NCBI RefSeq assembly: GCF_900113655.1
Contig: NZ_FOQF01000028.1
Location: 1 to 48,440 of the forward strand
Origin: Pseudobutyrivibrio sp. OR37
GTDB taxonomy: Bacteria > Bacillota > Clostridia > Lachnospirales > Lachnospiraceae
DNA length: 48,440 nucleotides
Reading direction: 5' to 3'
Under the pieces are notes generated by a model. The model worked only from the letters and a program-made list of their open reading frames with translations, was not told where the DNA came from and searched no databases. Numbering within the stretch: position 1 is the stretch's first letter; each line of letters starts with the position of its first letter. Positions 3,076-27,811 of this stretch are shown piece by piece. Both the position numbers and the translations under genes were made by a program.

Positions 3076-4620
3076 ATGAGTAAGAAACCTGTAGTACTTA
3101 TGGTTCTTGATGGATATGGTCTTAACGACAATCCAAAGGGAAATGCTATCGCAATGGCAAAAACACCTGTTATGGACAAGCTTATGGCTGAATGCCCTTA
3201 TGTGGCAGGACAAGCTTCAGGCATGTTCGTTGGACTTCCTGATGGTCAGATGGGTAACTCAGAAGTTGGACATATGAATATCGGCGCTGGCCGCATTATC
3301 TACCAGGATTTAACACGTATCACAAAGGCTATCAACGATGGCGAGTTCTTCGAGAACAAGGTTTTACTTGAAGCTATCGAAAATGCTAAAAAGACTGGCG
3401 GAGACATTCACCTTTGGGGTCTTCTTTCAGACGGTGGTGTACACAGCCACATCGAGCACCTTTACGGAATGCTTGAAATGTGCAAGAAGAACGGCCTTTC
3501 AAATGTATTCGTTCATGCTTTCCTTGATGGACGTGATACTCCACCAGCATCTGGTAAGGATTTCTTAGCAACACTTCAGTCTAAGATGGATGAAATCGGA
3601 GTTGGTGCAATCGCATCTATTTCTGGTCGTTACTACGCTATGGACCGTGATAACAACTGGGACCGTGTTGAGAAAGCTTACAATTCCTTAGTTAAGGGCG
3701 AAGGCGTTCTTGCAACTTCTGTACAGGATGCTATGCAGGCTTCTTATGATGATGGAGTTACTGATGAGTTCGTTCTTCCAACAGTTATCACTGATTCAGA
3801 AGGCAAGCCACTTTCACTTGTAAAGAATGGCGACTCAGTTGTATTCTTTAACTTCCGTCCAGACCGTGCTCGTGAAATTACTAGAGCTTTCTGTGATGAC
3901 AAGTTCACAGGATTCGATAGAGAATTCCTTGATTTATATTACGCTTGCTTCAAGGATTATGATGAGACAATCCCTAACAAGCACATCGCTTTCGAAAAAG
4001 AGAGCATTACAAATACATTCGGCGAGTTCTTAGCTAACAATGGTAAGAAGCAGTTAAGACTTGCAGAAACTGAAAAATACGCACACGTTACATTCTTCTT
4101 CAACGGTGGTGTTGAGGAGCCTAATAAGGATGAAGAAAGAATCCTTGTTAACTCACCAAAGGATGTAGCTACATATGACCTTAAGCCTGAGATGTCAGCT
4201 CCAGAGGTTGGCAAGAATCTTGTAGAGGCTATCAAGTCTGATAAGTACGATGTTATCGTTATTAACTTCGCAAACCCAGACATGGTTGGTCATACTGGCG
4301 TCATAGAAGCAGCTGTTGCAGCTGTAGAGCGTGTTGACTCACTTGTAGGAGAGGCCGTAGAGGCAGTTAAGGAGATGGACGGAGCATTGTTCATCTGTGC
4401 TGACCACGGTAATGCTGAGAAGATGATTGATTATGAGACAGGAGAGCCACACACAGCTCACACAACAAATCCTGTTCCATTTATCTTAGTTAACTACGAT
4501 AGTGACTATACCCTTAGAGAGGGCGGAGCTCTTTGTGATATCGCTCCTACACTTATCGAGATCATGGGTCTTGAGCAGCCAAAGGAGATGACTGGTAAGT
4601 CATTATTGATTAAGAAATAA
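3076..4620 (+). CDS. gpmI: 2,3-bisphosphoglycerate-independent phosphoglycerate mutase
   Basis: A 514-aa protein of full family length, preceded by AAGGAGG. It interconverts 3- and 2-phosphoglycerate in glycolysis and gluconeogenesis in the cytoplasm, using two metal ions (typically Mn). Visible signatures are VLDGYG with metal ligand Asp12, GNSEVGHMNIGAGR with the phosphorylated Ser62, DGRDTPP, SGRYYAMDRDNNWDR, FNFRPDRARE, and the C-terminal metal motif ICADHGNAEKM followed by HTAHTTNPVPF. It is read in the same direction as the purine genes downstream, 52 nt away, without an obvious terminator between them. It also supplies the 3-phosphoglycerate branch that feeds serine/glycine and hence purines, though co-regulation is only inferred. 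Confidence 0.97.
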   Translation: MSKKPVVLMVLDGYGLNDNPKGNAIAMAKTPVMDKLMAECPYVAGQASGMFVGLPDGQMGNSEVGHMNIGAGRIIYQDLTRITKAINDGEFFENKVLLEAIENAKKTGGDIHLWGLLSDGGVHSHIEHLYGMLEMCKKNGLSNVFVHAFLDGRDTPPASGKDFLATLQSKMDEIGVGAIASISGRYYAMDRDNNWDRVEKAYNSLVKGEGVLATSVQDAMQASYDDGVTDEFVLPTVITDSEGKPLSLVKNGDSVVFFNFRPDRAREITRAFCDDKFTGFDREFLDLYYACFKDYDETIPNKHIAFEKESITNTFGEFLANNGKKQLRLAETEKYAHVTFFFNGGVEEPNKDEERILVNSPKDVATYDLKPEMSAPEVGKNLVEAIKSDKYDVIVINFANPDMVGHTGVIEAAVAAVERVDSLVGEAVEAVKEMDGALFICADHGNAEKMIDYETGEPHTAHTTNPVPFILVNYDSDYTLREGGALCDIAPTLIEIMGLEQPKEMTGKSLLIKK

Positions 4621-8463: not shown

Positions 8464-9366
8464 TTATCTAAAAAGGGTAGCAAATAGTATTGCTACAAAA
8501 TAAGCACTATTAATAATTACATAGTTTTTTATTGAGCAGATGAAGGTTTTTTCTTTTATCTGCTCTTTTTTAAATCTTGAAATGTTCTTAGCTACAGGTA
8601 TTATGGAAATCATAAAAATAAGTGCAAAAGGATTTAAGATGTTAGCCACTGTCATAACACCTACAGCTATATAGCAAGCAATATAAAGTTCTGCAAAAAG
8701 CGTAACAGCTTTTCTTCGTCCAATATAATGAACGAGAGTAAGGCGATTAACGGCTTCGTCTTTTTCCAGGTCGCAAGTATTATTAGCAAGCATTATGTTA
8801 GAAGTAGTAAAGGTCATAACAAGTGAAAATAGCAGGAAGCTAATAAGCGGCATCACTTCAAGAGATAGGGATATAGTCTCTAAAGAAAGTGATAGTGTAA
8901 GATAGTGGCTAGGATTGTTGATATATAGCATCAAAAAAGGAATGAACATACCGTAGGCCACACCTGAAAATAATTCACCTAATGGAATTCTGGAAATTGG
9001 TATTGGACCAAAGGTGTAGAATATTCCAAGCATAAAACAAAATGCACCAAGCAAAAGCACAACTATACCAGTTTTATAGGCTAAATATAGGCCTAAAATG
9101 GTACTTATGGAAAGCATGGTAATTATACTTATAAATGCAGTCTTTCTAGGGATAGGTAGCATTTGCGGGTAATCCCTGCTGTCGATGTAATTGTTGATTC
9201 CAGTAGTGGTCAAATCAAAAATGAACATGGCAAAAAAGAAAACAACCATTAGCGGTATGTTTATAGGCTGCTTTGTGTAAATAATAAAAGCCAGTGTATT
9301 AATAAAAGCAAATATGCTTGTTATCTTAGTTTGAATTTCCACAAATTTTAAAAATTTCTTTATCAC
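8464..9366 (-). CDS. dmkA: UbiA-family prenyltransferase (DMK/menaquinone-type; DmkA-like)
   Basis: A 300-aa integral membrane protein with about eight hydrophobic segments. The two acidic motifs of the UbiA superfamily are visible: INNYIDSRDYP near residue 57 and the second, NTCDLEKDEAVNRLTLV, in the second half. Both bind Mg-diphosphate of the polyprenyl donor. UbiA/MenA enzymes attach the polyprenyl tail to 1,4-dihydroxy-2-naphthoate or a similar ring. Because the divergent genes encode an NDH-2 and a polyprenyl diphosphate synthase, a role in making the (demethyl)menaquinone that carries electrons from Ndh2 is inferred, as for DmkA in the Listeria EET locus. No men genes for ring synthesis are in the window. 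The gene has an AAGGAGA-type ribosome binding site. Confidence 0.82.
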   Translation of the reverse strand: MIKKFLKFVEIQTKITSIFAFINTLAFIIYTKQPINIPLMVVFFFAMFIFDLTTTGINNYIDSRDYPQMLPIPRKTAFISIITMLSISTILGLYLAYKTGIVVLLLGAFCFMLGIFYTFGPIPISRIPLGELFSGVAYGMFIPFLMLYINNPSHYLTLSLSLETISLSLEVMPLISFLLFSLVMTFTTSNIMLANNTCDLEKDEAVNRLTLVHYIGRRKAVTLFAELYIACYIAVGVMTVANILNPFALIFMISIIPVAKNISRFKKEQIKEKTFICSIKNYVIINSAYFVAILFATLFR

Positions 9367-9588
9367 TACAATCTCCTTATTTAAATTTTACTATTTTTAA
9401 GTATTATCAATCTCTAGCATTTTCCGACCGTTCAATCGTATAAAATTAAGTTGGTACATAATAAATAACATAAAATATTGTAATGTGCAATCATTTGTGT
9501 TATTCTAGTGAGACTCACCATTGTTAAAAATTGCACAAAATACAATCGGGCACAATGTAATACACATGAATTAAAGAAAGGGAATTAT

Positions 9589-11595
9589 ATGACGAACATA
9601 GTCGTAATTGGAGCAGGTTACGCGGGTGTACTTGCGACAAAGAAGTTGGAAAAAAAGCTTCGAAAGAAAAAGCTTGCGGGTGAAACTCAGATCACACTTA
9701 TTGATAAGCATCCATATCATACGATGCTTACAGAGCTTCACGAGGTTGCAGCTTGCCGAGTAGGAGAAGAAAGTGTAAAGATGAACCTTGACCAGATTTT
9801 CGCTGGACGCAAGGTTAATGTTGTACTTGATACAGTCACAAAAGTAGATTTTGAAAACAATACTGTTAAGGGTAAGAATGGTGAATATTCTTATGACTAT
9901 CTTGTTGTAGCTGCTGGTTCTAAGCCTACATATTTTGGTGTAGAGGGTGCACAGGAAAATAGTTATTCATTATGGTCATATGATGATGCTGTAAAGCTTC
10001 GTGACAGAATTCATGATTGCTTTAGAATGGCAGCTGATGAAACTGATATTAATAAAAGAAGAGAGCTTCTTAGCTTTTATATAGTAGGCGCAGGATTTAC
10101 AGGCGTCGAGATGGTTGGAGAGCTGGCCGAGTATACTCCAATTCTTTGCAAGCGCTTTAATATTAATAGAGATGAGGTAACTATAGTAGACGTTGATGGA
10201 CTATCGCGTCCAGTACCTATTCTTCCAGAAAAGCTTTCAAACAAGGTTGATAAGCGCCTTAAAAAGATGGGCGTTGATGTTGTGATGAATGCAAGCGTTG
10301 TTGGCGTTGGAAAAAATTTCATCAAGCTTAAGAAGAATGATGAAATTACTGAGCATGTTGCTGGCACAGTTATTTGGACAGCTGGTATTGAAAGCTCAGA
10401 TATAACATCTGAAATAGCAAAAGAAACAACAAGTGGTGGAAGAGGCAGAATACAGGTAGATGAAAATCTTCGCTCAGTTGATCATGAGAATGTATACGTA
10501 ATTGGTGACAATATGCTTTTCACAGCAAAGGGTGAGGAACGTCCAGTACCACAGATGGTTGAGAATGCAGAACATTCAGCGGCCACAGTTGCTAAGAATA
10601 TCGTCGCTACTATTACTAAATCAGGTGAGCTGGAAGCATATAACCCAAAATTCCATGGTGTAATGGTTTGCGTAGGTGGTAGATACGGTGTTGCAAGAGG
10701 TGGAATGGCAAAGCATCAGATAAATTTTGCCTCATTCTTCGCTATGTTTGCAAAGCACTTTATCAATATCATCTATTTCATTCAAGTAATGGGATGGACA
10801 AAGGTATTCTCATACCTTAAGCATGAGTTCTTCACAATAAGAAATAGACGAAGCTTCCTTGGCGGACACTTCTCTAACAGGACTCCTAGCTTTATGTTAG
10901 TGCCTCTTAGATTATGGCTTGGTGCCGTATGGGTATATGAAGGTGTCATGAAGATTGTGGAGGGCTGGCTTACTACACCAAAGCTTGCAGGCTTCTTTGG
11001 TGGTGCTAACACATGGTTTGATACATTGCTTGGCAGAATCGATCCAGCAACCGCAGATGCAGTGGCATCAGCCTCAACAGAAGCAGCTGGGGCTGCCGAC
11101 GCAGTAGCATCAGCATCTACAGCAGTTGCCGATGCTGCAGTACAGACTGGAACAGTTATATTTGATTGGAACTTTAAGCTTTTTGAAACAATACTTGTTT
11201 CAGGAGTAGATTTAGCTCAGTCTACAGTATCTGATATTGCCTTTAAGATACAGGTACCATTTGTAGATTGGTTCGTTACTAATGTGGTGCTTGCTAGCGA
11301 TGGCATGCAGATGTTCATGCAGATTTTGATTGTGGTGCTTCAGATTCTCATTGGTCTTGGGCTTATGGGCGGATGCTTTACATTCCTATCAGCAGGAGTA
11401 TCTCTTGTGCTTCAGGCAATGTTTGTTACAACTACAGGTTTATATTTGAATACGTTCTGGATGATTTTTGCCGGACTTGCTTTACTTTTTGGAGGCGGAT
11501 ATACACTTGGAATCGATTACTACTTAATGCCATTCCTAAAGAAGAAGTGGCAAAACGTCAAGTGGGCGAGAAAGTGGTATTTATACAATGACTAA
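9589..11595 (+). CDS. ndh2: Type II NADH dehydrogenase with C-terminal membrane (DoxX-like) extension
   Basis: A 668-aa protein. ATG 9589 is chosen for its AAAGGG site and the immediate Rossmann start (MTNIVVIGAGYAG); the upstream in-frame extension has no such features. Residues 1 to about 400 are a pyridine-nucleotide disulphide-type flavoprotein: FAD motif GAGYAG (8-13), TVTKVDF, NAD motif IVGAGFTGVE near 166, VIWTAGI, and the second FAD motif VYVIGDN. From about residue 410 the chain becomes hydrophobic, with several membrane segments resembling DoxX/quinone-associated proteins (RTPSFMLVPLRLWLGAVWVY). Between them is a 14-residue Ala/Ser-rich tandem duplication. Ndh2 of the Listeria EET locus likewise has a membrane C-terminus. 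It should oxidise NADH and reduce a (demethyl)menaquinone. It overlaps dmkB by 8 bp. Confidence 0.88.
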   Translation: MTNIVVIGAGYAGVLATKKLEKKLRKKKLAGETQITLIDKHPYHTMLTELHEVAACRVGEESVKMNLDQIFAGRKVNVVLDTVTKVDFENNTVKGKNGEYSYDYLVVAAGSKPTYFGVEGAQENSYSLWSYDDAVKLRDRIHDCFRMAADETDINKRRELLSFYIVGAGFTGVEMVGELAEYTPILCKRFNINRDEVTIVDVDGLSRPVPILPEKLSNKVDKRLKKMGVDVVMNASVVGVGKNFIKLKKNDEITEHVAGTVIWTAGIESSDITSEIAKETTSGGRGRIQVDENLRSVDHENVYVIGDNMLFTAKGEERPVPQMVENAEHSAATVAKNIVATITKSGELEAYNPKFHGVMVCVGGRYGVARGGMAKHQINFASFFAMFAKHFINIIYFIQVMGWTKVFSYLKHEFFTIRNRRSFLGGHFSNRTPSFMLVPLRLWLGAVWVYEGVMKIVEGWLTTPKLAGFFGGANTWFDTLLGRIDPATADAVASASTEAAGAADAVASASTAVADAAVQTGTVIFDWNFKLFETILVSGVDLAQSTVSDIAFKIQVPFVDWFVTNVVLASDGMQMFMQILIVVLQILIGLGLMGGCFTFLSAGVSLVLQAMFVTTTGLYLNTFWMIFAGLALLFGGGYTLGIDYYLMPFLKKKWQNVKWARKWYLYND

Positions 11596-12547
11596 TGTCA
11601 AATTAGATTTTGATACTGCCTTTGATGAGGTGAAAAAAGAGGCATCAAAAATAATTACTTCCGGACCTAGTCTTATTTCTGGTTATGTAAATTATCTTAC
11701 AGAGACCACAGGAAAAATGATGAGGGCAAAGGCCGTTCTTGCTACAGCTATGGATGCTGATGGTAATGTACCAAAGGATGCAATCAAATTTGCGGCAGCA
11801 GTGGAGGTGCTTCATCTTGCTACTCTTGTACATGATGATATTATGGATGATGCTGACACCAGAAGAGGGCAGATTACTCTTCAAAAGAAGGCCGGAAAGC
11901 GAATCGCTGTAATATGTGGTGATTACCTTTTAGCCTCTGCCATTCGAGAAATCTCTGAGGTTTCTCAGGAAGACAGATATAGAGATTTTGATTTTTCAAG
12001 ATATGTTCAGGCTATTGCTTTAGGTGAGCTTAGGCAGAATATCAACAACAGGAATTTTGGACTTAAGGTTTTTAGATATCTATCAATTATTGATGGAAAG
12101 ACAGCAGCTTTGTTTGAAGCTTCCTACCATGCAGGCGCAATGGCTGGTGGGGCAGATAAAAAGACACAGAAGCTGTACCGCAGATTGGGAAGATACACAG
12201 GAATCATTTTCCAACTGACAGATGATTGCATTGACTATGAGAACACTGCTGAATCAGCTTTAAAACCAGTTCAGTCAGATTTTGAAAATGGTGTTGTTAC
12301 ATTACCTTTGATTCATGTTTTTGAAAAGAGACCTGAATTAATTGACAAGGCTAAAGAAGGTACTCTATCAAAAGAAGAAGTCTTTGCTGCCGTAAAAGAA
12401 AATGATGGGGTAGGCTATACTCATAAAATTGCAGAAAAGTTTTATAAAAGAGCAAAAGCTATTATAAATCAGATAGAAATGTCCGATATACAATATGGTA
12501 TGTTATCTGGATTATTAGACAAAGCCTATACAGGCATAAAGGGATGA
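11588..12547 (+). CDS. dmkB: Polyprenyl diphosphate synthase (DmkB-like, HepT family)
   Basis: A 319-aa trans-isoprenyl diphosphate synthase. The first aspartate-rich motif is in LVHDDIMDDADTRRG and the second in LTDDCIDYEN, with the IDGKTAALFEAS motif between them. Together they bind the Mg-diphosphates of the allylic substrate and IPP. The start ATG lies within the last codons of ndh2, so the two are coupled. Next to a type II NADH dehydrogenase and a UbiA prenyltransferase, its likely job is to make the side chain of a dedicated demethylmenaquinone pool. The chain length cannot be read with confidence from the sequence. Confidence 0.9.
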   Translation: MTNVKLDFDTAFDEVKKEASKIITSGPSLISGYVNYLTETTGKMMRAKAVLATAMDADGNVPKDAIKFAAAVEVLHLATLVHDDIMDDADTRRGQITLQKKAGKRIAVICGDYLLASAIREISEVSQEDRYRDFDFSRYVQAIALGELRQNINNRNFGLKVFRYLSIIDGKTAALFEASYHAGAMAGGADKKTQKLYRRLGRYTGIIFQLTDDCIDYENTAESALKPVQSDFENGVVTLPLIHVFEKRPELIDKAKEGTLSKEEVFAAVKENDGVGYTHKIAEKFYKRAKAIINQIEMSDIQYGMLSGLLDKAYTGIKG

Positions 12548-12611
12548 TATTTATAGCTACCATGCTATGGATATATAGAACTATTCATCAAGAAAGAAAG
12601 GGTAAAACAAG

Positions 12612-13703
12612 ATGAAGAAGAATTTAGTTGCTTTAATGTGTGTTGCATCGATTGCAACAACAGCTTTCGTTGGTTGTGGTTCTAACAGCACAGCTGACAC
12701 AACAACAGAACAGGCTACAGCAGAGGCAGAAACATCAGTAGAAAAGGTTGATGTATCTAATGCTCCAGTTGCAGCAGAAGGTGAGCTTCTCACTGGTATT
12801 GGTACAAGCGTTTCAACTGCTGATTCTGTAGACGCAACAGCAGATGCTGATGGTACTGCACAGTGTGATGCTACAATCGCAGCCGTTACAGTAGATTCTA
12901 ATGGCGCTGTTGTAGAGTGTGTAATTGATATTGCACAGACAAAGATTGGTGTAAGTGCTGATGGAAAGATTACAGCTGACCTTGACGCAACATATCCTTC
13001 AAAGAGAGAACTCGGCGATGATTACGGTATGAAGAAGTTTTCTGCTATTGGTAAAGAATGGTTTGAGCAGGCAGATGCTTTTGCTGCATGGACTGTTGGT
13101 AAGACAGCAGAAGAAATCAGCAATATGTCTATCGAGCAGGGACTTGCAACAGATGAGGATTTAGTTGCATCAGTTTCAATCCATGTGACAGGCTTCCAGG
13201 CTGCAGTACTTGAGGCTATGAATAATGCAGTTGCAGGTGGCGCTGTAGAAGGTGACAAGCTTGGACTTGGTCTTTCTACAAAGATTTCTAATTCAGTAGA
13301 TGCAACAGCAGATGCTGATGGTACAGCAGAAGCTTATACAACTATTTCAGTGCTTACTGTAAATGGTGATGGCGTAATTACTAGCTCATTAATCGATGCA
13401 GTTCAGGGAAAGATTACATTTGATGCAAAGGGCGCAATTACATCAGACACAACTACTGAAGTAAAGAGTAAGAACGAGCTTGGTGATGCTTATGGCATGA
13501 GAGCTGCTTCTGCAATCGGTAAGGAGTGGAATGAACAGGCACAGGCTTATGCTGATTACACTGTTGGTAAGACTCTTGAAGAAGTAGAGGGCACAGCAAT
13601 TGAGGAAGGTCGCGCAGCAGATGCTGACCTTGCAGCTTCAGTTTCAATTCACATCACAGATTTTAATGCAGTTATTGCAAAGGCTGTTGAAAGTGCGAAG
13701 TAA
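12612..13703 (+). CDS. pplA: FMN-binding-repeat lipoprotein (PplA-like extracellular flavoprotein)
   Basis: A 363-aa protein with a lipoprotein signal (MKKNLVALMCVASIATTAFV then GC, lipid on Cys22), a Thr/Ala/Glu-rich linker, and two tandem repeats of about 135 residues (about 71-205 and 226-360). Both repeats share VDATADADGTA, KxELGDxYGM, SAIGKEWxEQA and TVGKT elements. Each ends in the same motif: DLVASVSIH (183-191) and DLAASVSIH (339-347). These align with the flavinylation motif of FMN_bind domains (DxxSGATxT), placing the predicted FMN-bearing residues at Ser189 and Ser345. Listeria PplA is likewise a lipoprotein with two flavinylated repeats that passes electrons from the membrane to acceptors outside the cell. 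An ApbE gene is directly downstream. RBS AAGAAAGAAAGGG. Confidence 0.88.
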   Translation: MKKNLVALMCVASIATTAFVGCGSNSTADTTTEQATAEAETSVEKVDVSNAPVAAEGELLTGIGTSVSTADSVDATADADGTAQCDATIAAVTVDSNGAVVECVIDIAQTKIGVSADGKITADLDATYPSKRELGDDYGMKKFSAIGKEWFEQADAFAAWTVGKTAEEISNMSIEQGLATDEDLVASVSIHVTGFQAAVLEAMNNAVAGGAVEGDKLGLGLSTKISNSVDATADADGTAEAYTTISVLTVNGDGVITSSLIDAVQGKITFDAKGAITSDTTTEVKSKNELGDAYGMRAASAIGKEWNEQAQAYADYTVGKTLEEVEGTAIEEGRAADADLAASVSIHITDFNAVIAKAVESAK

Positions 13704-13726
13704 TTAATTTAAAATTAAATAGCTGA

Positions 13727-13756
13727 GGGGGTGTGCATCCTTGCATGCCCCTTTTT
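13727..13756 (+). terminator. Rho-independent terminator between pplA and fmnB
   Basis: A GGGGTGTGC arm (728-736 of 13 kb) pairs with GCATGCCCC (13743-13751), with two G-T wobbles, around ATCCTT, followed by five T. It lies 24 nt after the pplA stop and 31 nt before the ATG of the ApbE gene. It could end most transcripts after pplA and let only some continue. Confidence 0.75.
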
Positions 13757-13786
13757 AATATTGAACGATTTTAGATAGGTATTAGT

Positions 13787-14869
13787 ATGAAGCGATTAAA
13801 GATTGCATCAGTAATTCTGATTATTTTTTTGATTATATTTATTTGGGCGGTACATTCTGGGAGGCTGTTTAGTGACAAGGCTGATGACAGCGGGGAACAA
13901 ATCAAATATACTGCCACATTTATGGATATTTTCGATACCCGAACAGAAATCCTTGGGTATGCAAATAATGAAGAAGAATTTTCAAACCAGGCGGAGCTGA
14001 TAAAAGACCGTTTAGTTTTTTATAATAATTTATATGATATTTATAACGACTATGATGGAATCAATAATATTAAAACCATCAATGATAATGCAGGCATCGC
14101 ACCTGTTCAGGTGGATGAAGAGATTATCAATTTGCTGAAGTTTAGCAAGGATATGTATGAACTTACTGACGGCAAGGTTAATATAGCCATGGGCTCCGTG
14201 CTTTCTATCTGGCATGAATACAGGGAGTACGGCAGTGAAAATCCCGACAGGGCAAGCCTGCCTACCATGGACGAGCTAAAAGAGGCAAATCAGCATACCA
14301 ATATAGAGAATATGATTATTGATGAAAAAGCAAAAACTGTCTATTTGACAGATCCTGAAATGTCTCTTGATGTAGGTAGTACAGGTAAAGGCTACGCCGT
14401 TCAAAGGGTGATGGAATATTGCAGGGAAAAGGGAATGGATAATATTCTTTTGAGTCTTGGCGGCAATATTTCAGGACTTGGCACACGTATTGACGGAACC
14501 CCTTTTAGAATAGCTATTCAGAATCCTGATTTAACCAGCACAGAACCATATATAGAAAAGGTTGATATTTCAGATGGCCAGTGTGTAGTATCTTCTGGTG
14601 ATTATCAGAGGTATTATGTGGTGGATGACAAGGTTTACTGTCATATTATCAATCCTGATACTTTATATCCGGCAGAGACATTTGCAGCGGTATCAATACT
14701 TACAGATGATTCAGGAAAGGCAGATGCTTTATCTACTGCAATTTATAATATGAGCTTGGAAGAAGGCATGGATTTTGTTAATGGATTAGAGGGCGTTGAG
14801 GCCATGTGGGTATATCACGATGGCTCAAAGGTCTATTCAGAACACTTTGAGGAAAGCATAGTAAAATAA
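13787..14869 (+). CDS. fmnB: ApbE-family FAD:protein FMN transferase (FmnB-like)
   Basis: A 360-aa protein with an N-terminal membrane anchor (hydrophobic residues about 5-27, no lipobox), so its catalytic domain should lie outside the membrane. ApbE motifs are present: FMDIFDT, KVNIAMGSVLSIWHEY, DVGSTGKGYA, LLSLGGNISGLG, HIINPDTLYPA (His286 onward) and TDDSGKADALSTA (from residue 306), which holds the metal/FAD-binding acidic residues. These enzymes transfer FMN from FAD to a Ser/Thr of an FMN_bind domain. The substrate is almost certainly the two-repeat lipoprotein encoded immediately upstream. It is separated by one base from eetA, so the last three genes form one unit. Confidence 0.92.
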   Translation: MKRLKIASVILIIFLIIFIWAVHSGRLFSDKADDSGEQIKYTATFMDIFDTRTEILGYANNEEEFSNQAELIKDRLVFYNNLYDIYNDYDGINNIKTINDNAGIAPVQVDEEIINLLKFSKDMYELTDGKVNIAMGSVLSIWHEYREYGSENPDRASLPTMDELKEANQHTNIENMIIDEKAKTVYLTDPEMSLDVGSTGKGYAVQRVMEYCREKGMDNILLSLGGNISGLGTRIDGTPFRIAIQNPDLTSTEPYIEKVDISDGQCVVSSGDYQRYYVVDDKVYCHIINPDTLYPAETFAAVSILTDDSGKADALSTAIYNMSLEEGMDFVNGLEGVEAMWVYHDGSKVYSEHFEESIVK

Positions 14870-14870
14870 A

Positions 14871-15248
14871 ATGAAGAAAAACGATTTAATCTTAATAATT
14901 GTAATACTGGCGTTGACTGCAATAAGTGTTGTGGGAATAACAGTCTCTAGAAAAATGAATAAGGCAGATGTAGCCTATGCTGTTGTGACTATCGATGGAA
15001 ATGAATATGGAAGATATCCACTTGATGAGGATATGGTTACCACCATCGAGCTAGAGGACGGAAGCTATAATATCCTTGAAATACATGATGGATATGCCCA
15101 AATTTCCGAGGCAAGCTGTAGGGATCAGATATGTGTTAATCATTTTCCTGTACATTATTCCAAGGAGATGATTGTATGTCTGCCAAATAGGCTTATTGTA
15201 GAAATTGTTGGTGGCGAGGAAAATGATGTAGATGGAGCCACAAATTAG
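14871..15248 (+). CDS. eetA: NusG domain II-containing membrane protein (EetA-like)
   Basis: A 125-aa protein with one N-terminal membrane segment (residues about 5-25) and a small beta-rich domain outside the membrane. The NusG_II family pattern is visible: ISEASCRDQICVNHF then IVCLPNRLIVEIVGG, with two cysteines in the CRDQICV segment. It has nothing to do with transcription. In Listeria the equivalent EetA is a membrane component of extracellular electron transfer, thought to work with EetB. Start ATG is one base after the fmnB stop, and the stop is followed 14 nt later by eetB. Confidence 0.85.
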   Translation: MKKNDLILIIVILALTAISVVGITVSRKMNKADVAYAVVTIDGNEYGRYPLDEDMVTTIELEDGSYNILEIHDGYAQISEASCRDQICVNHFPVHYSKEMIVCLPNRLIVEIVGGEENDVDGATN

Positions 15249-15262
15249 TGGGTGGAGGATTT

Positions 15263-15763
15263 ATGAAGACTAGACGAATTGCCTTTTTAGGCTTGTTAAT
15301 AGCTCTTGCATTTGTGCTTTCCTATGTGGAGTTTTTGCTACCCCTTAGTATAGGTATTCCAGGTGCTAAAATTGGTCTTGCCAATTTAGTAGTTATGGTT
15401 GCACTTTATACAATTGGTAATAAAAACGCATTTTTGCTTTCTTTAGTTCGTGTCATTCTTGTAGGACTTACCTTCGGCAATCTTGCAATGATGATATATT
15501 CCATGGCTGGTGCAATGCTTTCCTTTTTGGTAATGATAATTGCCAAGAGAACAAAGCTCTTTTCTATAACTGGAGTCAGTGTTTTAGGCGGTGTATTCCA
15601 CAATGTTGGGCAGATACTAGTAGCTATGTTTGTACTAGATACTGCAAGTCTTATATATTATTTACCATTTCTTATTGTAATTGGAACAATTTCAGGTATA
15701 GTAATTGGTATTATATCCGGTATGATAACCGCTAGGGTTGGAAGACTGTTTGATATAAAATAA
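15263..15763 (+). CDS. eetB: Gx transporter family membrane protein (EetB-like)
   Basis: A 166-aa protein with five to six membrane segments. ATG 15263 is preferred to the GTG at 15248 because GGAGG lies at 15254-15258. The sequence MKTRRIAFLGLLIALAFVLS, followed by PGAKIGLANLVVMVALY and FGNLAMMIYSMAGAMLS, is typical of the Gx transporter family. This family is often mislabelled heptaprenyl diphosphate synthase component I and is related to ECF substrate-binding subunits. Its Listeria counterpart EetB is required for extracellular electron transfer. Here it closes the cluster. No aspartate-rich catalytic motif is present, so an enzymatic role in prenyl synthesis is not supported. Confidence 0.85.
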   Translation: MKTRRIAFLGLLIALAFVLSYVEFLLPLSIGIPGAKIGLANLVVMVALYTIGNKNAFLLSLVRVILVGLTFGNLAMMIYSMAGAMLSFLVMIIAKRTKLFSITGVSVLGGVFHNVGQILVAMFVLDTASLIYYLPFLIVIGTISGIVIGIISGMITARVGRLFDIK

Positions 15764-17428: not shown

Positions 17429-20400
17429 ATGAAAAAGACTTTGCGTAAGGTATATAGCTTTTGCCTTGCATTAGTAATTACCTTCACAACTGTTGTGACT
17501 GATGTTTATGCTACAGAACTTCAGCAATCAGCTGAAACAGAAGTGACAGAGAACACAACAGACACTAATATTCAGACCGAAAATGGGGAGAATATTATAA
17601 ATGAAGAACCTGGCATAGATAGTACAGTGCCAGCTGAAAATCAGACACAGACTACAGAAGGAAACCAGCTTCCTGATGCAAATGAGAATAGCCAAACTTC
17701 TGCAGATGAAGCAACAGAACAGCAAACAGACCCTCAAGCAGCTGAAAAAGAGGCAGCTGAAGAAGAGATAGCTGATGGAGAGGTATCTGAAGAAGAGCTT
17801 TTAGTGGAAGAAGCAGATGAAGAGGAGCTTCTAGAGGATTCTGAGCGAGTGAAGCTTGATGAAAATGGAGTGCTTACAATAAAAGGTATTACTATTATTG
17901 AGAGTTCCGATTTAAAATCGATTAAGAAGGATGAAATTAAGAAAATCGTATTTCCTGATAACCTTCAGACAATCGGTGATGGTGCATTTTATAATTGTAA
18001 AAACCTGGAATCTTTAGAGCTTCCATCATCATTGACAAGTATAGGGAAAAATGCATTTTGCCGTTGCTCAAAATTAAAGACAATAGTAATTCCTGAGAAT
18101 GTTAGAACAATTGGATCTTGCGCTTTTGGCTCCACTAACATCAGTTCAGTTACACTTTTAACTAAGAATGTTGCTATTACCAGTACAACAACATATGATG
18201 GTGCGTTTTTTGAAGTGGCAAGTACTTATGAACAGCCTGTTATCACAGAGCTTGTTATTCCAGAGGGAACAAGAACATTTCCATCAATATTCAGAAGTAG
18301 TAGATTTGGTGGAAGTGCATCTACTATAGTTGTGCCTAAATCTGTTATCAGTATGCCAAAACACGCTTTTCGAGGATCAAAAGGAATTAGACAAATTGAT
18401 TTTTTAGGTGATAATGTTTCATTTACTACAGCTCAAGATATTTTTTATTCATGTTCTAGCTTGGAATATGTTTTTTGTAACAAGGGCACCACAACAGAAA
18501 AGTCCCTTCAGGCTTATGTGGCGAAGAAAAAGTTAGGTGTAAATGCCATAGTTACAAGAAACAAAATATCCTATAACCTAAACGGTGGCAGTCTTGCTGA
18601 GGGTGTTACAAATCCAGTAGGCTTTGTGGCTACTCAGGAGCCACTCACAATTACAAGCCCATCAAGAGAGTTTTACGATTTCAAGGGCTGGTACTTAGAT
18701 GCAAAATTTACAAAGCCAGCTATCGCTATAGAAAATATTAAGGATGGCAAGGGTACACTTGATGTTACAAATTTCAAGGACAACATCACCCTCTACGCAA
18801 AGTGGGAAGGTCCTATTTATAACATCACTTTCGATGCAAAGGGTGGTACAGCTTCAAAGACTGAAGTTCGCTATGTAAAGGGCGATACCTTTGGAGAGCT
18901 ACCAACAGTTACTCCACCGGCAGGAAAGATATTCCTTGGCTGGTTTACAAAGGAAGGTGTGGAGATTACAAGTACCTCAAAGGTAGATCAGGTTGCTACA
19001 AGCTCAGTTGTAGAGGCTCTTTATTCAACTGTAGTTACTACGGTTGACGCTCCTTCAATTTCGCTTTGGGGACAGGAATCTGTGGCAGATGCTACAGGCA
19101 AGATTCCTGCTGAATTAAATAGCAAAGTGACTATCTCTACTACAACAGAGGATGCAGAAATTACATATTCGATTTCTGGTGCAGCTACTGCTTCAAATCA
19201 GAAATATGAATCAGATATTTTATTGAACAAAGCTGGAGAGTATGTTATTACAGCAAAAGCCACAAAGGATGGAGCTACAAGTGAGCAGACTAGCGCTACA
19301 TTTGTTGTGGCGGATGAGGAGATTGATGAAGTAGTCAAGGCCGATGAGGATGAAGACAAGTTTGTTGTAACCTATAAGGGAAAGAAGGTCGAGGACGGTA
19401 CTGAAACTCTTCAATTCACTGGCTCAAAGGTTACCTTCGAATCTAAAGATATTAAGGTTTATTACAACAAAAAGGCTCTTACAGAAAAGGTAGATTATAC
19501 TATTTCTTACGAGAACAATACAAAGGCTGCAACCTTTGAACAGAGAAACGCTTCAGGCAAGCTTGTTGCTCCAGCTTTAGTTATCAATTTTAAAGGCAAT
19601 TATACAGGAAAGCTTAAGAAATATTTTACTATCAAGGATAAGTCTGAAAATGCTGAAAAGCTAGCTTCAAACAAGGTAGTAATCAATCTTGATCAGGCCA
19701 CCTTCACATACAAGAAGGATACTGAGGCAAAGCCAGCAATTACTGTTCAGTACAAGAAATCAGCAAAAGAGATTATTGATATTGATGCAAAAGAATACAC
19801 AGTAACTTATGCAAACAACATCAATGCAGGTAAGAATGCAACAGTAACAGTTATATTTACAGGTGAAAAGTATTACGGTACAGCTTCAAAGAAGTTTGAG
19901 ATTAAGCCAATCGATTTGACAGAGCTTCAGAAAGCAGGTGATCTTGCAATTTCTGATAGCAATGCTTCAAGCACAAGCTTTGCGGTAAAGGCTAATAAGG
20001 GCAAGAAGCCATCGGATTTATATTTACATATCAAATCAACAAATGAATGCGTTGACTATGCATACCTTACAGGTCGAAGCGTAAAGTTTGTAAAGGACAA
20101 GAATACTGGCAAGATGAACTGTGTTGCCACATTTACAGGAAAGACAAATTACAAGGGTAAGGTTACCTTTACCGTTCCTGTTGAAAAGACAAAACTTTCA
20201 GATGCTACAGTTTATGGAATCAATAGTTCTGGCTACAATAAATACTTCAAGGCATCAGGCCTTGCTGGTGTGGCAGCCTTTGCAAATACAGTTGTAGCAC
20301 CTATTTACAATGAAAAGCAGGTAAACTACAAGAAGGCTACATATACACTTGCAGACAATTATGGAACAGTTTTAGGTAGCAGCGATTACTCAATGTACTA

Positions 20401-21169
20401 TCAGGTTAAGACTTCCTCTGACACTAGCTTTAAGGAGCCAGCCAACATTAAATATCCTGCTGGTACAGAGATTAAGATAACATTCACAGCCAAAGACAAC
20501 AGCATGTACGAGGGCACAAAGGAGGTTGTGTATAAGATTCTTGAGGGAAGCTATTACAACATTTCAAATGAGGCAGAGGCAGCAGCTTTTGAAACAGCCT
20601 TTGATGTAACCTGCCCTGATGTTGTTTATGCAAACAAAGCTAACAATTGGGTACCAAAGCTTAATGTTTATAACCCAAGACTTAATGTAAATCTTAAAGA
20701 GAATAAGGAATTTACAGTTGTTTACAATGTGGTAAATGAGACTGTAGTTTCTGGTAAATACAAAAATAAGACTACAAAGACAGTGCTTGCTTCAGGTGCG
20801 GAGCTTAAGAAGGATGCAAAATACACTGTACCTGTTGGAACAGTTATACGTGCAACAATTACTGGAACTGGTACTTATGAAAAGTGCCAAAGCTACACAA
20901 CAACCTTTAGAATTGGATACAACATCAATTCAGTGAAGGTTACAGTAAAGGCCCAGGATTACAATAACAAAAACAGTGGTGTAGTTCCTACTAAGAGTGA
21001 CATCACAGTTACTTTAAAGAATTCAACAGTGAATTCTTCAAACTACCAGATTACTCATTTTGCAAAGAATAACAAGAAGGGAACAGCTACCTTTGAGCTT
21101 ATAGGAAAGAATAATTATGTAGGTACTAAGAAGGTAAGCTACAAGATTAATCCTAAGAAGTTCTTTTAA
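17429..21169 (+). CDS. Large secreted surface protein: BspA-type LRR plus InlB B-repeats
   Basis: A 1246-aa protein with a Sec signal peptide (MKKTLRKVYSFCLALVITF, cleavage near DVYATE). The order is: a Thr/Gln/Glu-rich low-complexity region (about 30-145); BspA/LRR_5 leucine-rich repeats (about 150-370; LQTIGDGAFYNCKNLESLEL, LTSIGKNAFCRCSKLKTIVI); two InlB B-repeat (Flg_new) modules (about 380-460 and 461-532; ISYNLNGGSL, FKGWYLDAKF, LGWFTKEGV); a chitobiase/hexosaminidase C-terminal-like module (about 537-627); then repeated Ig-like beta modules to the end (FKGNYTGKLKKYFTI, FTGEKYYGTASKKFEI). It has no LPXTG motif, SLH domain or C-terminal membrane anchor, so it is probably secreted or held non-covalently. 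Adhesion is a family-level inference. It has a GGAGG site and its own strong promoter. Confidence 0.88.
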   Translation: MKKTLRKVYSFCLALVITFTTVVTDVYATELQQSAETEVTENTTDTNIQTENGENIINEEPGIDSTVPAENQTQTTEGNQLPDANENSQTSADEATEQQTDPQAAEKEAAEEEIADGEVSEEELLVEEADEEELLEDSERVKLDENGVLTIKGITIIESSDLKSIKKDEIKKIVFPDNLQTIGDGAFYNCKNLESLELPSSLTSIGKNAFCRCSKLKTIVIPENVRTIGSCAFGSTNISSVTLLTKNVAITSTTTYDGAFFEVASTYEQPVITELVIPEGTRTFPSIFRSSRFGGSASTIVVPKSVISMPKHAFRGSKGIRQIDFLGDNVSFTTAQDIFYSCSSLEYVFCNKGTTTEKSLQAYVAKKKLGVNAIVTRNKISYNLNGGSLAEGVTNPVGFVATQEPLTITSPSREFYDFKGWYLDAKFTKPAIAIENIKDGKGTLDVTNFKDNITLYAKWEGPIYNITFDAKGGTASKTEVRYVKGDTFGELPTVTPPAGKIFLGWFTKEGVEITSTSKVDQVATSSVVEALYSTVVTTVDAPSISLWGQESVADATGKIPAELNSKVTISTTTEDAEITYSISGAATASNQKYESDILLNKAGEYVITAKATKDGATSEQTSATFVVADEEIDEVVKADEDEDKFVVTYKGKKVEDGTETLQFTGSKVTFESKDIKVYYNKKALTEKVDYTISYENNTKAATFEQRNASGKLVAPALVINFKGNYTGKLKKYFTIKDKSENAEKLASNKVVINLDQATFTYKKDTEAKPAITVQYKKSAKEIIDIDAKEYTVTYANNINAGKNATVTVIFTGEKYYGTASKKFEIKPIDLTELQKAGDLAISDSNASSTSFAVKANKGKKPSDLYLHIKSTNECVDYAYLTGRSVKFVKDKNTGKMNCVATFTGKTNYKGKVTFTVPVEKTKLSDATVYGINSSGYNKYFKASGLAGVAAFANTVVAPIYNEKQVNYKKATYTLADNYGTVLGSSDYSMYYQVKTSSDTSFKEPANIKYPAGTEIKITFTAKDNSMYEGTKEVVYKILEGSYYNISNEAEAAAFETAFDVTCPDVVYANKANNWVPKLNVYNPRLNVNLKENKEFTVVYNVVNETVVSGKYKNKTTKTVLASGAELKKDAKYTVPVGTVIRATITGTGTYEKCQSYTTTFRIGYNINSVKVTVKAQDYNNKNSGVVPTKSDITVTLKNSTVNSSNYQITHFAKNNKKGTATFELIGKNNYVGTKKVSYKINPKKFF

Positions 21170-21205
21170 TTTTGGATGATGCCATTTTGGCAGAGGAATT
21201 GATAG

Positions 21206-24052
21206 ATGAAAAATAAGCCATTTATTATCGGGGGAATAATTGCTTGCGTATTAATTATTGGTGGAATTATAGGATTTATATTGGCGAAAGGCAATTCAGG
21301 GAATGAATCTCTTGATGGTATAGAGCCTGTAGCTTTTGAAAAAGTTTCAGAGGATGATGCTATTTCAGAAAAGGAATATATGGCACTTCTCAATGAAGCC
21401 TTTAACTATGAGGACTCTATAGAGTATTCCGATAATAAAATCACTGGTAAGGCTGCAGTGGCTAAAGGCGTGGACCGCCTTGGCCCTGCTTACCGTGAAT
21501 ATCTATTGGATGGAACCGAAGATACTCCAGAAACCAGATTTGAACTTGTAGAAAAGAAAGGGGTTCTATCAAAGGAGTTTGAGGATGCATATTTAAGCAG
21601 TACTCAAGCAGAGGCGCTTATTAAAAATTTTACAGCCCTTGCTACAATAGAGGACTATCATGTTTCTGTATCTAAGTATGAGGCTGCTGAAGGTGTTGTA
21701 GATGGTTCTGATTGGACAGCGACCTATTACACCAGCCATGAGGATGGAACCGAAGAGGCTCTTATTGAAATAAAGGGCGAAGCACCTTCTGTTGGAGAAA
21801 AGCTAATCTACAAGGATACTGTAGGTGTTCTTCGTGGAGGTACTATCAGTGCTATTGAAAAGCGCGACGGTGATATCTACGATGTATTGACTACAAAGCC
21901 ACAGAGTCTGGATGATTTATTAACTGATTATACGGTTGCAGGCTATGTTGATTGGTCCCAGGTGGCTGCACTTAATACAGAGGATGGGACTCAGGTTTTA
22001 GATACCTCTGGTGTTCCTAATTATAGCTTTGTATCCACAAATAAAGACAAGGGTGTAAAGACAACTGTTACAGTAACAGGAACAGTGTCAATCAGTAATG
22101 CTTCATCAGATGATGCTGAAGTTGGGCTTGAGGTTACTGGCTTTAAAATAGGAGATAAGGATTATTCTTATCTTTGTGATGCCTTTAATTCAGCTAAAGA
22201 ATCTTATGAAAATATTTCTGAACTAGCTGATGACGCAGGTGATGAAGAGACAGATGATGAAGATGCAGGTGATGAAGATACAGGGGAGGAAGACTCATCA
22301 ACGGTCGATATTGAAATCTCCTTAGAAGATTTTCAGCTTTATGCCTATGCAAACAAAGAGGGTGGCTTTTATTATGAATGTCTGTATAAGCCTGTCTTAA
22401 AAATGGGTGATGCCAAGATTAATTATTCCTTTGATTTGCCAGCTATTCCAATTCCTCTTGGTATTGCAAAAATAGATTTGGCTTTAGGTCTTCATGCTGA
22501 CATGGAAATGGAAAATATTGATGTTGTAATAACCACTGAAAATCCTACTGGAACTATAATAGTTTTCGATGAAAATGGTTATTCCAAGACTGAGGAAAAA
22601 GCAAAAATTGTAAGTTATTTTGAAAATGGAAGCACAAATGAGGAAGCTGCAACAATTACATTAACATCGGGAGTTACACTCAAGGCTTCATTGACTATAC
22701 TTGAGGTTTCAGTAATTGATCCTAAAATAGATTTCTATGCAAAGCTATCTGCTGAGCAGCTTGAAATTGTGCCTGGGTTTGAAAATGCATGCTGGGAAGC
22801 CAAAGTTGTAGGACCAATGATTGATTTTTATATTACAGATGATGAGTCGGAATCGTTAGCTTCCTATATAGCAGATTCGCTTATAAAACTTAATATAATC
22901 GAGGACACCAAGATTCCTTTACTAACAGAAGCAAATACTTTCAGCCTATATTATCACTTGGAGTTTGATGATTCTCCTATGATTAAGGAGGATCCAAACC
23001 ACGATGCATCTGTCTGCACCCATGTTGCAGAAGATGGCAGCAGATCAAAGATTAGACGCCATGTGGATTATACGCTTCCTAAGTCTATTGATGAAATTGA
23101 CATTGATAAGAAGACAGCTAAGCTTTACCAGGATTTTCTTGATGGAAAAGTTACAGCGTCTGTAGTAAAAGATAACAATTATCCTGATGCTTTTGAGGAT
23201 GTGAATAAAGAGTATTCATTTGATGACTTGTACAATGATACTTTAAAAGATCATTCTAAGAAATGTGAAGATTGGGATTTTGAGAAAGACTATTATGATT
23301 ATTCTATTACTAATAATAGGATAGAATATATTGATGCAGGTAAAGATGACAATCCTGAAATGATTATCACTTTTTCAAGAAAGTCATTAAACTATGATTC
23401 ATCGAATGATTGGGCTAGAGTTATTTTAAGAAATAATGATGGGAAGCTTGAAATATGCTATAGATATGTTATCTCTTTATATTCAGGTGACGGCGCTGAT
23501 ACTGGGGCAGATATTTATTACAACGGAATGATATATGATACCTATTCTGGAGTAAATTACGGCGGCTACAGTTGTGGCTTTATAGATAGTGATGGAGTAT
23601 ATCGTGATTGGTATAAATATAGTACAATAACAGTAACAAATGGAATGTATACAAGTACAGGAGAATACAAGCCTATTTTTGATGATGATAATACCTGGGG
23701 AATAGTTGGAATTCATATTCCTCCTTATGATGACGATAATGAGGCAGATTCTGCATACTCATATATATGTCCTAATATTGAAACATGGGAAGAACCAGAT
23801 AAAAATCAAATAAGTATTGGCGAAGACCCTGCTTTAATTTATGACACAAACTCTGATTACAAAGCTAATTTTGATGCTTTTGTAAAGGGAATGGCAAATT
23901 TTAGAGAACTCCAAAAGGATAATGATGGATATTCCTTTTATAAAGAATACGGGTATTTTAACGAAGTATTAAGTATTGCAAAATCAAAAGAGCTTGTAGA
24001 AGAACAAAGACAAAAAATCGGACTTACTGACGACATATATTATGTAGACTGA
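21206..24052 (+). CDS. Membrane-anchored extracellular protein of unknown function
   Basis: A 948-aa protein I do not recognise. An N-terminal hydrophobic segment (MKNKPFIIGGIIACVLIIGG and onward to about residue 28) anchors it, and the remainder should be outside. The chain is very acidic. It contains a short Asp/Glu-rich near-repeat around residues 345-368 (DAGDEETDDEDAGDEDTGEE) that divides an N-terminal part from a beta-rich middle (FDLPAIPIPLGIAKIDLALG) and a Tyr/Asp-rich C-terminal third (YNGMIYDTYSGVNYGGYSCG). The Asp-rich stretches might bind calcium; this is inference. It follows the LRR protein by 36 nt with an AGAGGA site and no terminator, so both are probably co-transcribed. The gene ends before a perfect hairpin terminator. 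Confidence 0.75.
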   Translation: MKNKPFIIGGIIACVLIIGGIIGFILAKGNSGNESLDGIEPVAFEKVSEDDAISEKEYMALLNEAFNYEDSIEYSDNKITGKAAVAKGVDRLGPAYREYLLDGTEDTPETRFELVEKKGVLSKEFEDAYLSSTQAEALIKNFTALATIEDYHVSVSKYEAAEGVVDGSDWTATYYTSHEDGTEEALIEIKGEAPSVGEKLIYKDTVGVLRGGTISAIEKRDGDIYDVLTTKPQSLDDLLTDYTVAGYVDWSQVAALNTEDGTQVLDTSGVPNYSFVSTNKDKGVKTTVTVTGTVSISNASSDDAEVGLEVTGFKIGDKDYSYLCDAFNSAKESYENISELADDAGDEETDDEDAGDEDTGEEDSSTVDIEISLEDFQLYAYANKEGGFYYECLYKPVLKMGDAKINYSFDLPAIPIPLGIAKIDLALGLHADMEMENIDVVITTENPTGTIIVFDENGYSKTEEKAKIVSYFENGSTNEEAATITLTSGVTLKASLTILEVSVIDPKIDFYAKLSAEQLEIVPGFENACWEAKVVGPMIDFYITDDESESLASYIADSLIKLNIIEDTKIPLLTEANTFSLYYHLEFDDSPMIKEDPNHDASVCTHVAEDGSRSKIRRHVDYTLPKSIDEIDIDKKTAKLYQDFLDGKVTASVVKDNNYPDAFEDVNKEYSFDDLYNDTLKDHSKKCEDWDFEKDYYDYSITNNRIEYIDAGKDDNPEMIITFSRKSLNYDSSNDWARVILRNNDGKLEICYRYVISLYSGDGADTGADIYYNGMIYDTYSGVNYGGYSCGFIDSDGVYRDWYKYSTITVTNGMYTSTGEYKPIFDDDNTWGIVGIHIPPYDDDNEADSAYSYICPNIETWEEPDKNQISIGEDPALIYDTNSDYKANFDAFVKGMANFRELQKDNDGYSFYKEYGYFNEVLSIAKSKELVEEQRQKIGLTDDIYYVD

Positions 24053-27141: not shown

Positions 27142-27189
27142 AATACATTCTCCTTTGTGAGTTGTAATTGTAAATGGTAACCATTCAGA

Positions 27190-27362
27190 ACTCATTACGA
27201 TTCAATCTACTTAGTGACACGAGCGTGAAGCCCAACCTGCTAAAAACGAACGCTGCAACGAGAGGATGGTTATCAGTCTTGCGTTACGGGCGTTATAGCC
27301 CAAGGGTGTCCCCGATAAACCATTTACCCTCTCATTTTAGCTTAATAATGAGGTTGGAAACT
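27190..27362 (-). ncRNA. Probable IS110 bridge RNA region
   Basis: The 220-nt noncoding left end upstream of the recombinase start is the place where IS110-group elements encode their bridge RNA. The minus strand holds several potential stem-loops, for example GGGCTATAACGCCC (rc of about 27289-27302) and GAGAGG...CCTCTC arms (rc of about 27260-27334). I did not fold it in full or assign target- and donor-binding loops. The call rests on position and family knowledge. Confidence 0.5.
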
Positions 27363-27811
27363 GAATGATAAATATTTTTATATATCCAACAATTACATTG
27401 TAGTAGGGTGTCCATCGTGAGGTGGAATCTGAAGGAAGCTGTAGGCAAACTCTCGGTCCGACGGACAGAAATCACATATAAGGCTAGGTTCTGCTTGGTA
27501 AGTCTGCCGAATAAGATGAAGCCGTAAAGTTGCCGTTTGTAGGAATCGAGTAAATGTGGCGGATAGATGAGAGGAAAGAGCGTGCACCTTAAGCGTGGAG
27601 GTCTCACAGAGGTTCCATTAGCCTAGTAACAACGAACTGTGAGAAGTCAGCCGAGCCCATAGTAGTGAAGAAATCTCTGTAATGGAGATGGAGTGAAGGG
27701 GCGAACAATCAATAAGTTTGAGTATGTCTCGTGTTGCAGAAATGACAACATCTGCCGTAACCAATCGGGATAAGGGTGGTCAAATTAAGCGGGGCGGAAA
27801 GGAAAGAACGC

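Follow-up and report, generated by a model that had tools for sequence, protein, structure and literature searches.

Positions 8464 to 15763 of a 48,440-nucleotide stretch of DNA from Pseudobutyrivibrio sp. OR37, which we call the window, carry a genuine and intact locus of the known kind for flavin-based extracellular electron transfer (EET). The explanation that we consider best, and hold to be highly probable, is that the locus serves as an overflow for NADH: electrons would pass through a type II NADH dehydrogenase (NDH-2), a quinone and the flavinylated lipoprotein PplA, in dependence on 1,4-dihydroxy-2-naphthoate (DHNA). Many related loci exist in Clostridia; what is noteworthy in this one is the absent quinone supply, the absent partner of its flavin exporter (the transmembrane subunit of an energy-coupling factor transporter, or ECF-T), and two regulatory signals.

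The locus and its genes

The window is one whole contig of a 3.56 Mb draft assembly that is 99.99% complete. A preliminary description, made from the window alone, had recognized seven genes of a Listeria-type EET set in it. All seven open reading frames (ORFs) are present and all their frames are intact:

dmkA, 8464..9366, minus strand: UbiA/MenA-type DHNA polyprenyltransferase, divergent from the other genes
ndh2, 9589..11595, plus strand: type II NADH dehydrogenase with a C-terminal membrane tail
dmkB, 11588..12547, plus strand: polyprenyl diphosphate synthase (Pfam polyprenyl_synt, 2.2e-53)
pplA, 12612..13703, plus strand: lipoprotein with two FMN-bind2-like repeats
fmnB, 13787..14869, plus strand: ApbE flavin transferase with an N-terminal anchor (Pfam ApbE, 6.9e-66)
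eetA, 14871..15248, plus strand: NusG domain II membrane protein (Pfam NusG_II, 1.2e-28)
eetB, 15248..15763, plus strand: ECF-S-like subunit, predicted to export flavin adenine dinucleotide (FAD) (Pfam PF07456, Hpre_diP_synt_I, 8.8e-40)

A Pfam profile search matches six of the seven proteins to their expected families, and PplA is recognized by motif, context and fold; families, gene order and ApbE residues together bear out the likeness to Listeria. The start of dmkB overlaps the end of ndh2 by 8 nucleotides, a single nucleotide separates fmnB from eetA, and eetB overlaps the final base of eetA: ndh2 to eetB reads as a single operon, with dmkA divergent.

Ndh2 consists of an NDH-2 domain (residues ~1-430) and a membrane tail (residues ~430-668). 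Its profile matches two chains of bacterial NDH-2 type with known structure, 4nwz (E 3.3e-73) and YjlD, 9pxk (E 7.6e-68); the tail is hydrophobic, as judged by eye, and its likeness to MauE/DoxX is weak and under cut-off. PMC8238504 defines flavin-based EET operationally by an NADH dehydrogenase with a transmembrane helix inside a flavinylation gene cluster, and the locus has such an arrangement, a membrane-segment NDH-2 clustered with apbE and FMN-binding genes. DmkA matches Pfam UbiA (2e-18) and two NCBIfam models of DHNA polyprenyltransferases (E 8e-71 and 7e-70).

Related loci were compared over the best 80 of at least 574 confirmed ones. Among these, the closest relatives of the locus belong to Pseudobutyrivibrio and Butyrivibrio, the closest named ones being a Pseudobutyrivibrio ruminis metagenome-assembled genome (MAG), Lachnospiraceae XBD2001 and P. 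ruminis DSM 9787; because these are its nearest named relatives, the host is a rumen-type Lachnospiraceae. Identity to the proteins of the P. ruminis MAG is 85% for PplA and 93% for Ndh2. The five core genes ndh2, dmkA, dmkB, pplA and fmnB are found in 47 of the 80 loci. Of the 44 loci that span 16.5 kb or more, 32 contain the five core genes, and in 20 the set of seven is complete; pplA and fmnB occur without ndh2 in eight, four of which adjoin rnf, and pplA occurs without a recognized fmnB in four. In a tree of Ndh2 with 44 rows, the window falls within a clade of 16 (support 100/100): 14 labelled Lachnospiraceae, one Oscillospiraceae and the window itself, with dmkA divergent in 15 of the 16.

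The flavoprotein and its transferase

PplA has a lipobox-like motif, FVGC, at residues 19-22, followed by two repeats of about 155 amino acids, each with three long strands and helices. The domain FMN-bind2 has about 160 amino acids, is flavinylated, and is frequently paired via beta-sheet packing (PMC10979944). The preliminary description had called PplA a two-repeat FMN_bind lipoprotein: the two repeats are there, and are FMN-bind2-like, while neither Pfam, NCBIfam nor the FMN_bind model gives any match to the protein. Its assignment to the two-site type comes from homology to clostridial relatives and from a motif present once in each repeat, which yields two predicted sites of attachment:

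predicted flavinylation at Ser189, 13176..13178, plus strand: repeat 1, motif D-L-V-A-S-V-S
predicted flavinylation at Ser345, 13644..13646, plus strand: repeat 2, motif D-L-A-A-S-V-S

In each repeat, the predicted acceptor is threonine in 64 and serine in 15 of 79 aligned PplA sequences, the window counted (81 PplA ORFs minus two short ones). That PplA could be a lipoprotein without flavin was considered and rejected in view of the conserved motif D-L-x-x-S-V-[S/T], the gene context and the fold. A single-repeat PplA-like lipoprotein is encoded between dmkB and fmnB in another genome (G051, stretch L058, ~3710-4270).

The closest solved structure to FmnB is 7esa (E 1.7e-33), which we take to be Listeria FmnB, since the spacing of the named residues agrees. 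The catalytic residues named for the Listeria enzyme are Ser257, Arg262, His273, Asp301, Thr305 and Asn216 (PMC8906456); they are conserved in the alignment to 7esa, where they correspond, in that order, to S270, R275, H286, D313, T317 and N227. Residues 1-45 of FmnB contain no cysteine, and a lipobox-like pattern is found in 39 of 72 FmnB sequences.

A hairpin between pplA and fmnB

The gap between the carrier gene and the gene of its modifying enzyme contains the first of the two regulatory signals:

terminator-like hairpin, 13725..13754, plus strand: 13 pairs, 6 of them G-C, between pplA and fmnB

The hairpin has a G+C-rich stem and a T-rich tail, and the folding z of the gap is -3.9. Such gaps were compared over 67 loci, that is, 81 loci with the window, minus nine lacking a complete pplA or fmnB, minus five with gaps outside 30-350 nucleotides. 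Their mean folding z is about -3.7 to -3.8, and 33 of the 67 pass a terminator filter, which lets through 1 of the 54 gaps that precede pplA and 0.9% of shuffles. Those 54 gaps, too, fold better than shuffled sequences do (mean z -1.5, with 20 of 54 below -2); only five gaps 3' of fmnB are measurable. The hairpin probably acts by partial termination or by protection of a 3' end; either would keep the pplA messenger in excess over that of fmnB, and the PplA carrier above the FmnB enzyme.

Quinone supply

The preliminary description had electrons flow from NADH through a dedicated demethylmenaquinone to the flavoprotein. The path from NADH to NDH-2, to quinone and to flavinylated PplA survives as the best reading; the part that does not survive is a quinone made by the cell itself, for none of the head-group genes looked for scores over cut-off. 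In the genome of the window, the best matches reach 78.5 bits for MenD (cut-off 244.2), 136.5 bits for MenB (cut-off 342.7) and 74.6 bits for MenG/UbiE (cut-off 158.35), and MqnA has no match; the search covered these four steps. No known route to DHNA thus seems to be open to the cell. Either its quinone is obtained from outside or it has no lipid quinone at all: with none of the four over cut-off, any quinone would call for imported DHNA.

How general is this? We looked at two samples. The first consists of 13 genomes of the family, chosen for PplA. MenB and MenG are over cut-off in none of them, and MqnA and MenD in one each, the same genome (G038). Its MqnA scores 25.4 bits, or 26.1 with neighbours, against a low Pfam cut-off of 26. 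All 13 genomes have matches to MenD at E<=0.001, and the 12 under cut-off are probably other enzymes that use thiamine pyrophosphate; one of these, G115, reaches 183 bits. The MenD-like genes of G038 (L059, 7742-9475) and G115 (L060, 7420-9174) lie among sugar-nucleotide, glycosyltransferase and polysaccharide-type genes, as judged by eye. We rejected both as quinone genes, given these polysaccharide-type surroundings and the lack of a MenB match in either genome. In seven of the 13 genomes, ndh2 and dmkB adjoin pplA, joined by dmkA in six; the other six have only pplA with fmnB there, sometimes with eetA and eetB, and no search for ndh2 elsewhere in them was made.

The second sample was selected without pplA: it consists of 36 further Clostridia, the genome of the window excluded, with a match to the Ndh2 tail at E<=2.8e-23, a tail matched in 82 of 393 genomes. 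Thirteen of the 36 match at E<=1.6e-52, and the others may include dehydrogenases that are not of the EET type. MenB is over cut-off in none of the 36, hence in none of 49 genomes overall, and MqnA is over cut-off in five (28-47 bits). EET genes without a detectable DHNA pathway thus appear to be general in the sample, apart from six genomes with a candidate futalosine route (26-47 bits). A precedent is Lactiplantibacillus plantarum, a quinone auxotroph whose EET is supported by exogenous DHNA from neighbours (PMC10746273, PMC9888254).

FAD export

In Listeria, EetB is an FAD-binding, ECF-S-like protein that is required, together with the ECF-T protein FmnA and EcfA/EcfA', for the flavinylation of PplA without added FAD; a clean deletion of eetA has no phenotype (PMC9973259). 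By homology to that protein, the EetB of the window is assigned as an FAD-exporting ECF-S subunit, its match to the ECF_trnsprt profile being very weak (E 0.11). The preliminary description had found the flavin exporter genes to be missing: this is correct for FmnA, as no dedicated ECF-T lies in the locus, and is not supported for the exporter subunit, of which EetB is a homologue.

The whole genome has a single match to ECF-T (PF02361), located outside the locus, next to a truA-like gene and to a gene for a 587-amino-acid fused EcfA-EcfA' double ATPase (stretch L162, 7743-9506). Among 13 genomes examined, the number of ECF-T matches ranges from one to five. A RibU-like ECF-S importer of 209 amino acids is encoded just 3' of a riboswitch for flavin mononucleotide (FMN). 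In the simplest model, one ECF core would be shared between import by RibU and export by EetB. Such sharing would be a real difference from Listeria, whose EcfT was unable to stand in for FmnA in export.

Candidate Rex operators upstream of ndh2

The second regulatory signal lies upstream of ndh2, and resembles an operator for Rex, a sensor of NADH/NAD+:

Rex-operator-like palindrome TTGTTAAAAATTGCACAA, 9521..9538, strand-neutral: 1 mismatch to TTGTKAANNNNTTMACAA, upstream of ndh2

The consensus used is stated in PMC8457756 and PMC2883068; the former gives the operator in Clostridiaceae as TTGTTAANNNNTTAACAA. At two mismatches or fewer, the whole window has 2 matches versus 1.69 expected, and its site is not significant alone. 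When related loci are considered, such a site is found upstream of ndh2 in 20 of 45, versus 24 of 1652 random windows, and 3 of 77 regions upstream of pplA, 0 of 74 of fmnB, 0 of 34 of dmkA and 0 of 48 of dmkB. These controls flatter the result, since the A+T content is 0.71 upstream of ndh2 and 0.57 in the loci; a fairer control is given by Markov sequences built from the same A+T-rich upstream regions, 3.1% of which have a Rex-like site. The 45 regions are also partly dependent, as two come from Ruminiclostridium cellobioparum and two others (L105 and L116) share one site. By type, sites occur in 16 of 30 loci with dmkA in line, and in 4 of 15 with dmkA divergent. Of 13 genomes searched for a Rex-type protein, all 13 encode one.

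Six stretches of the window's own genome (86 kb), two of them picked for their rex and crotonase genes, have four matches at the same threshold: two lie within genes and the two intergenic ones lie ahead of rex and ahead of the crotonase gene. In loci of the Lachnospiraceae/Butyrivibrio type, the region corresponding to 9367-9588 contains another conserved element, made up of a TTG-N7-CAA close to the presumed -35 and of TTGCGCAA-like boxes within the ndh2 leader; it overlaps the right half of the Rex-like site of the window.

Control by Rex is likely for the clostridial class of loci, judging from these motif counts. For this genome it is uncertain, because the site of the window lacks conservation in its nearest relatives. 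The idea extends precedents and is not the first of its kind, since control of an NADH dehydrogenase by Rex is known in Bacillus subtilis, and in Calderihabitans Rex-like motifs have been reported ahead of multihaem cytochromes with a presumed role in EET (PMC7306483). A literature search, to which most subscription papers were out of reach, returned no paper that brings together Rex and redox-sensing with an NADH dehydrogenase and EET; with a looser set of terms, Rex is tied to EET genes only in the Calderihabitans case, within the accessible text. The extracts of a paper on Rex in Listeria (PMC8389512) name no EET gene.

Comparison with known systems

The locus of Listeria monocytogenes contains dmkA, ndh2, eetA, eetB, dmkB, fmnA, pplA and fmnB. 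The window shares with it the gene families, the two-site flavoprotein lipoprotein, the ApbE catalytic residues and EetB; it differs by having no fmnA, a divergent dmkA, an ApbE without lipobox cysteine, and serine as predicted flavin acceptor where Listeria has Thr143 and Thr265. Listeria, moreover, makes its own DHNA, whereas no genes for DHNA synthesis were found here in the four steps searched.

In this last respect, the host resembles L. plantarum, a fermenter and quinone auxotroph in which flavin-based EET relies on DHNA or riboflavin from outside (PMC10746273, PMC9888254); unlike it, the host is, judging from its kin, a strict anaerobe, with a single ECF-T outside the locus and an Rnf operon. 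The same genes are found in the clostridial loci ndh2-dmkB-dmkA-(eetA-eetB)-pplA-fmnB of Ruminiclostridium, Mobilisporobacter, Sinanaerobacter, Muricomes and others, where dmkA is in line and not divergent as in the clade of the window; identity to 30 such non-divergent loci is 56-72% for Ndh2, 43-55% for PplA, and goes down to 25% for EetA. The NosR-ApbE module proposed for Fe(III) reduction by Clostridium is likewise a flavinylated carrier with ApbE that gives a fermenting clostridium an electron outlet, but that carrier is a NosR-type membrane protein, and the extracts of the paper describe no operon of ndh2, dmk and pplA (PMC13134045). A search for Butyrivibrio or rumen together with EET gave no title that points to a study of a locus like this one; PMC10794557, in the text available, mentions EET solely in a reference.

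Mechanism and alternative explanations

The proposed mechanism is as follows. NDH-2 would oxidize NADH and reduce a membrane naphthoquinone, for which DmkB and DmkA would prenylate DHNA scavenged from outside. PplA, with two covalent FMNs placed by FmnB, would accept electrons from the quinol and hand them to soluble shuttles, to Fe(III) or to other outside acceptors, while EetB and the one ECF-T of the genome would supply FAD to FmnB. The most likely role would be that of an overflow valve for NADH, at work whenever DHNA is available from neighbours; across the Clostridia, such loci often have an operator-like site for Rex ahead of them.

Several points weigh against this explanation. The evidence for electron export comes from genes and sequences, and both scores of DmkA are under the curated cut-offs of the DHNA prenyltransferase models. 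The absence of men genes is a matter of score cut-offs, one draft assembly and four steps, and an unknown quinone route would escape it. FAD export in Listeria requires FmnA, EcfT being no substitute (PMC9973259), and the PF02361 search found no second ECF-T. The Rex-like site of the window is not conserved at its position, where the nearest relatives retain no more than a variant right half, and the low count of such sites in divergent-type loci points the same way. Finally, the distribution is patchy: neither of the two listed genomes of the same genus matches the Ndh2 tail, and the trait is therefore dispensable.

A first alternative is that the electrons end elsewhere. The genome has an rnf operon (named by eye except for rnfG) followed directly by a gene for a 588-amino-acid protein with FMN_bind and FAD_binding_2 domains, and another contig encodes a 693-amino-acid protein with two FMN_bind domains and FAD_binding_2. 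Each has an N-terminal hydrophobic segment, as judged by eye; they look like flavinylated reductases, and FmnB may be shared with them. The locus could then mainly feed these two proteins instead of minerals or electrodes, which would use quinol from NDH-2, or electrons from Rnf, with PplA as a relay, to reduce compounds like fumarate, urocanate or enoates on the outer side of the membrane. Reductases of fumarate and of urocanate that are flavinylated and extracytosolic have been described (PMC8238504), but neither reductase-like gene adjoins the EET locus, and the company of Rnf suggests another electron source for the 588-amino-acid protein; we consider this outcome rather unlikely. We judge similarly the possibility that no lipid quinone is involved, and that NDH-2 directly reduces free DHNA, other water-soluble naphthoquinones or flavins, DmkA and DmkB mattering little. 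It agrees with the want of quinone synthesis genes over cut-off, and with L. plantarum, where DHNA is a diffusing shuttle and ndh2 and pplA are important, whereas deleting dmkA or dmkB changes little or nothing (PMC9888254). However, the 32 long loci that have ndh2 are the same 32 that have dmkA, dmkB, pplA and fmnB, an argument for dmkA and dmkB being in use.

Two further alternatives bear on the source of electrons and on the use of the locus. PplA might be fed with ferredoxin electrons by the Rnf complex, which the genome encodes: pplA-apbE adjoins rnf without a nearby ndh2 in 4 of the 80 loci (L128, L133, L143 and L157) and, by eye, in G115 (L057, 7158-15938) and probably G030 (L056, 4923-10987). 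Such loci may possibly hold an Rnf-fed version of PplA, but here rnf and the locus lie on different contigs, rnf on C80, whereas pplA and ndh2 share one operon, and for this locus we find the proposal improbable. That the locus is a relic, inherited and no longer used, would account for the congeners without the Ndh2 tail and for a quinone precursor that the cell appears unable to make; seven intact frames, conserved ApbE active-site residues and an Ndh2 so close to that of the P. ruminis MAG speak against decay, and we give it very little credence.

DHNA-dependent overflow of NADH is thus retained, and it can be extended into a conjecture on the whole class, which we put forward tentatively, as plausible but somewhat short of probable: the EET loci of Clostridia would be a quinone-scavenging, NADH-gated outlet of fermenters that are unable to make DHNA, commonly repressed by Rex until NADH accumulates, and active only in an over-reduced cell that receives DHNA from its neighbours. 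If this is true, the redox balance of a rumen butyrate producer would be coupled to a cross-fed quinone, in competition with the release of hydrogen. The redox balance of rumen butyrate producers affects the formation of hydrogen, and hence of methane. An outlet that depends on DHNA would be a testable link between the quinone-making and the fermenting members of a community, and the Rex-like sites and the hairpin after pplA offer handles on the timing of the locus and on the excess of PplA.

Other features of the window

The locus is flanked by a purB-like gene on one side and a glutamate-dehydrogenase-like gene on the other, both named by eye, as are the ORFs that follow. After the glutamate dehydrogenase gene, the region 17429-24052 encodes a secreted surface-type protein of 1246 amino acids with leucine-rich-repeat-like segments, and a membrane-anchored protein of 948 amino acids. 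A small cluster of mobile elements comes next: two transposase-like ORFs on the minus strand (24288-25625 and 25942-27195) lie just before parts of a group II intron (RF02001 at 27411-27586 and RF01998 at 27623-27701), themselves followed by a reverse-transcriptase/maturase-like ORF (27776-29095). A 6S RNA (RF00013, 71.8 bits) is found at 32549-32732, downstream of a pckA-like gene.

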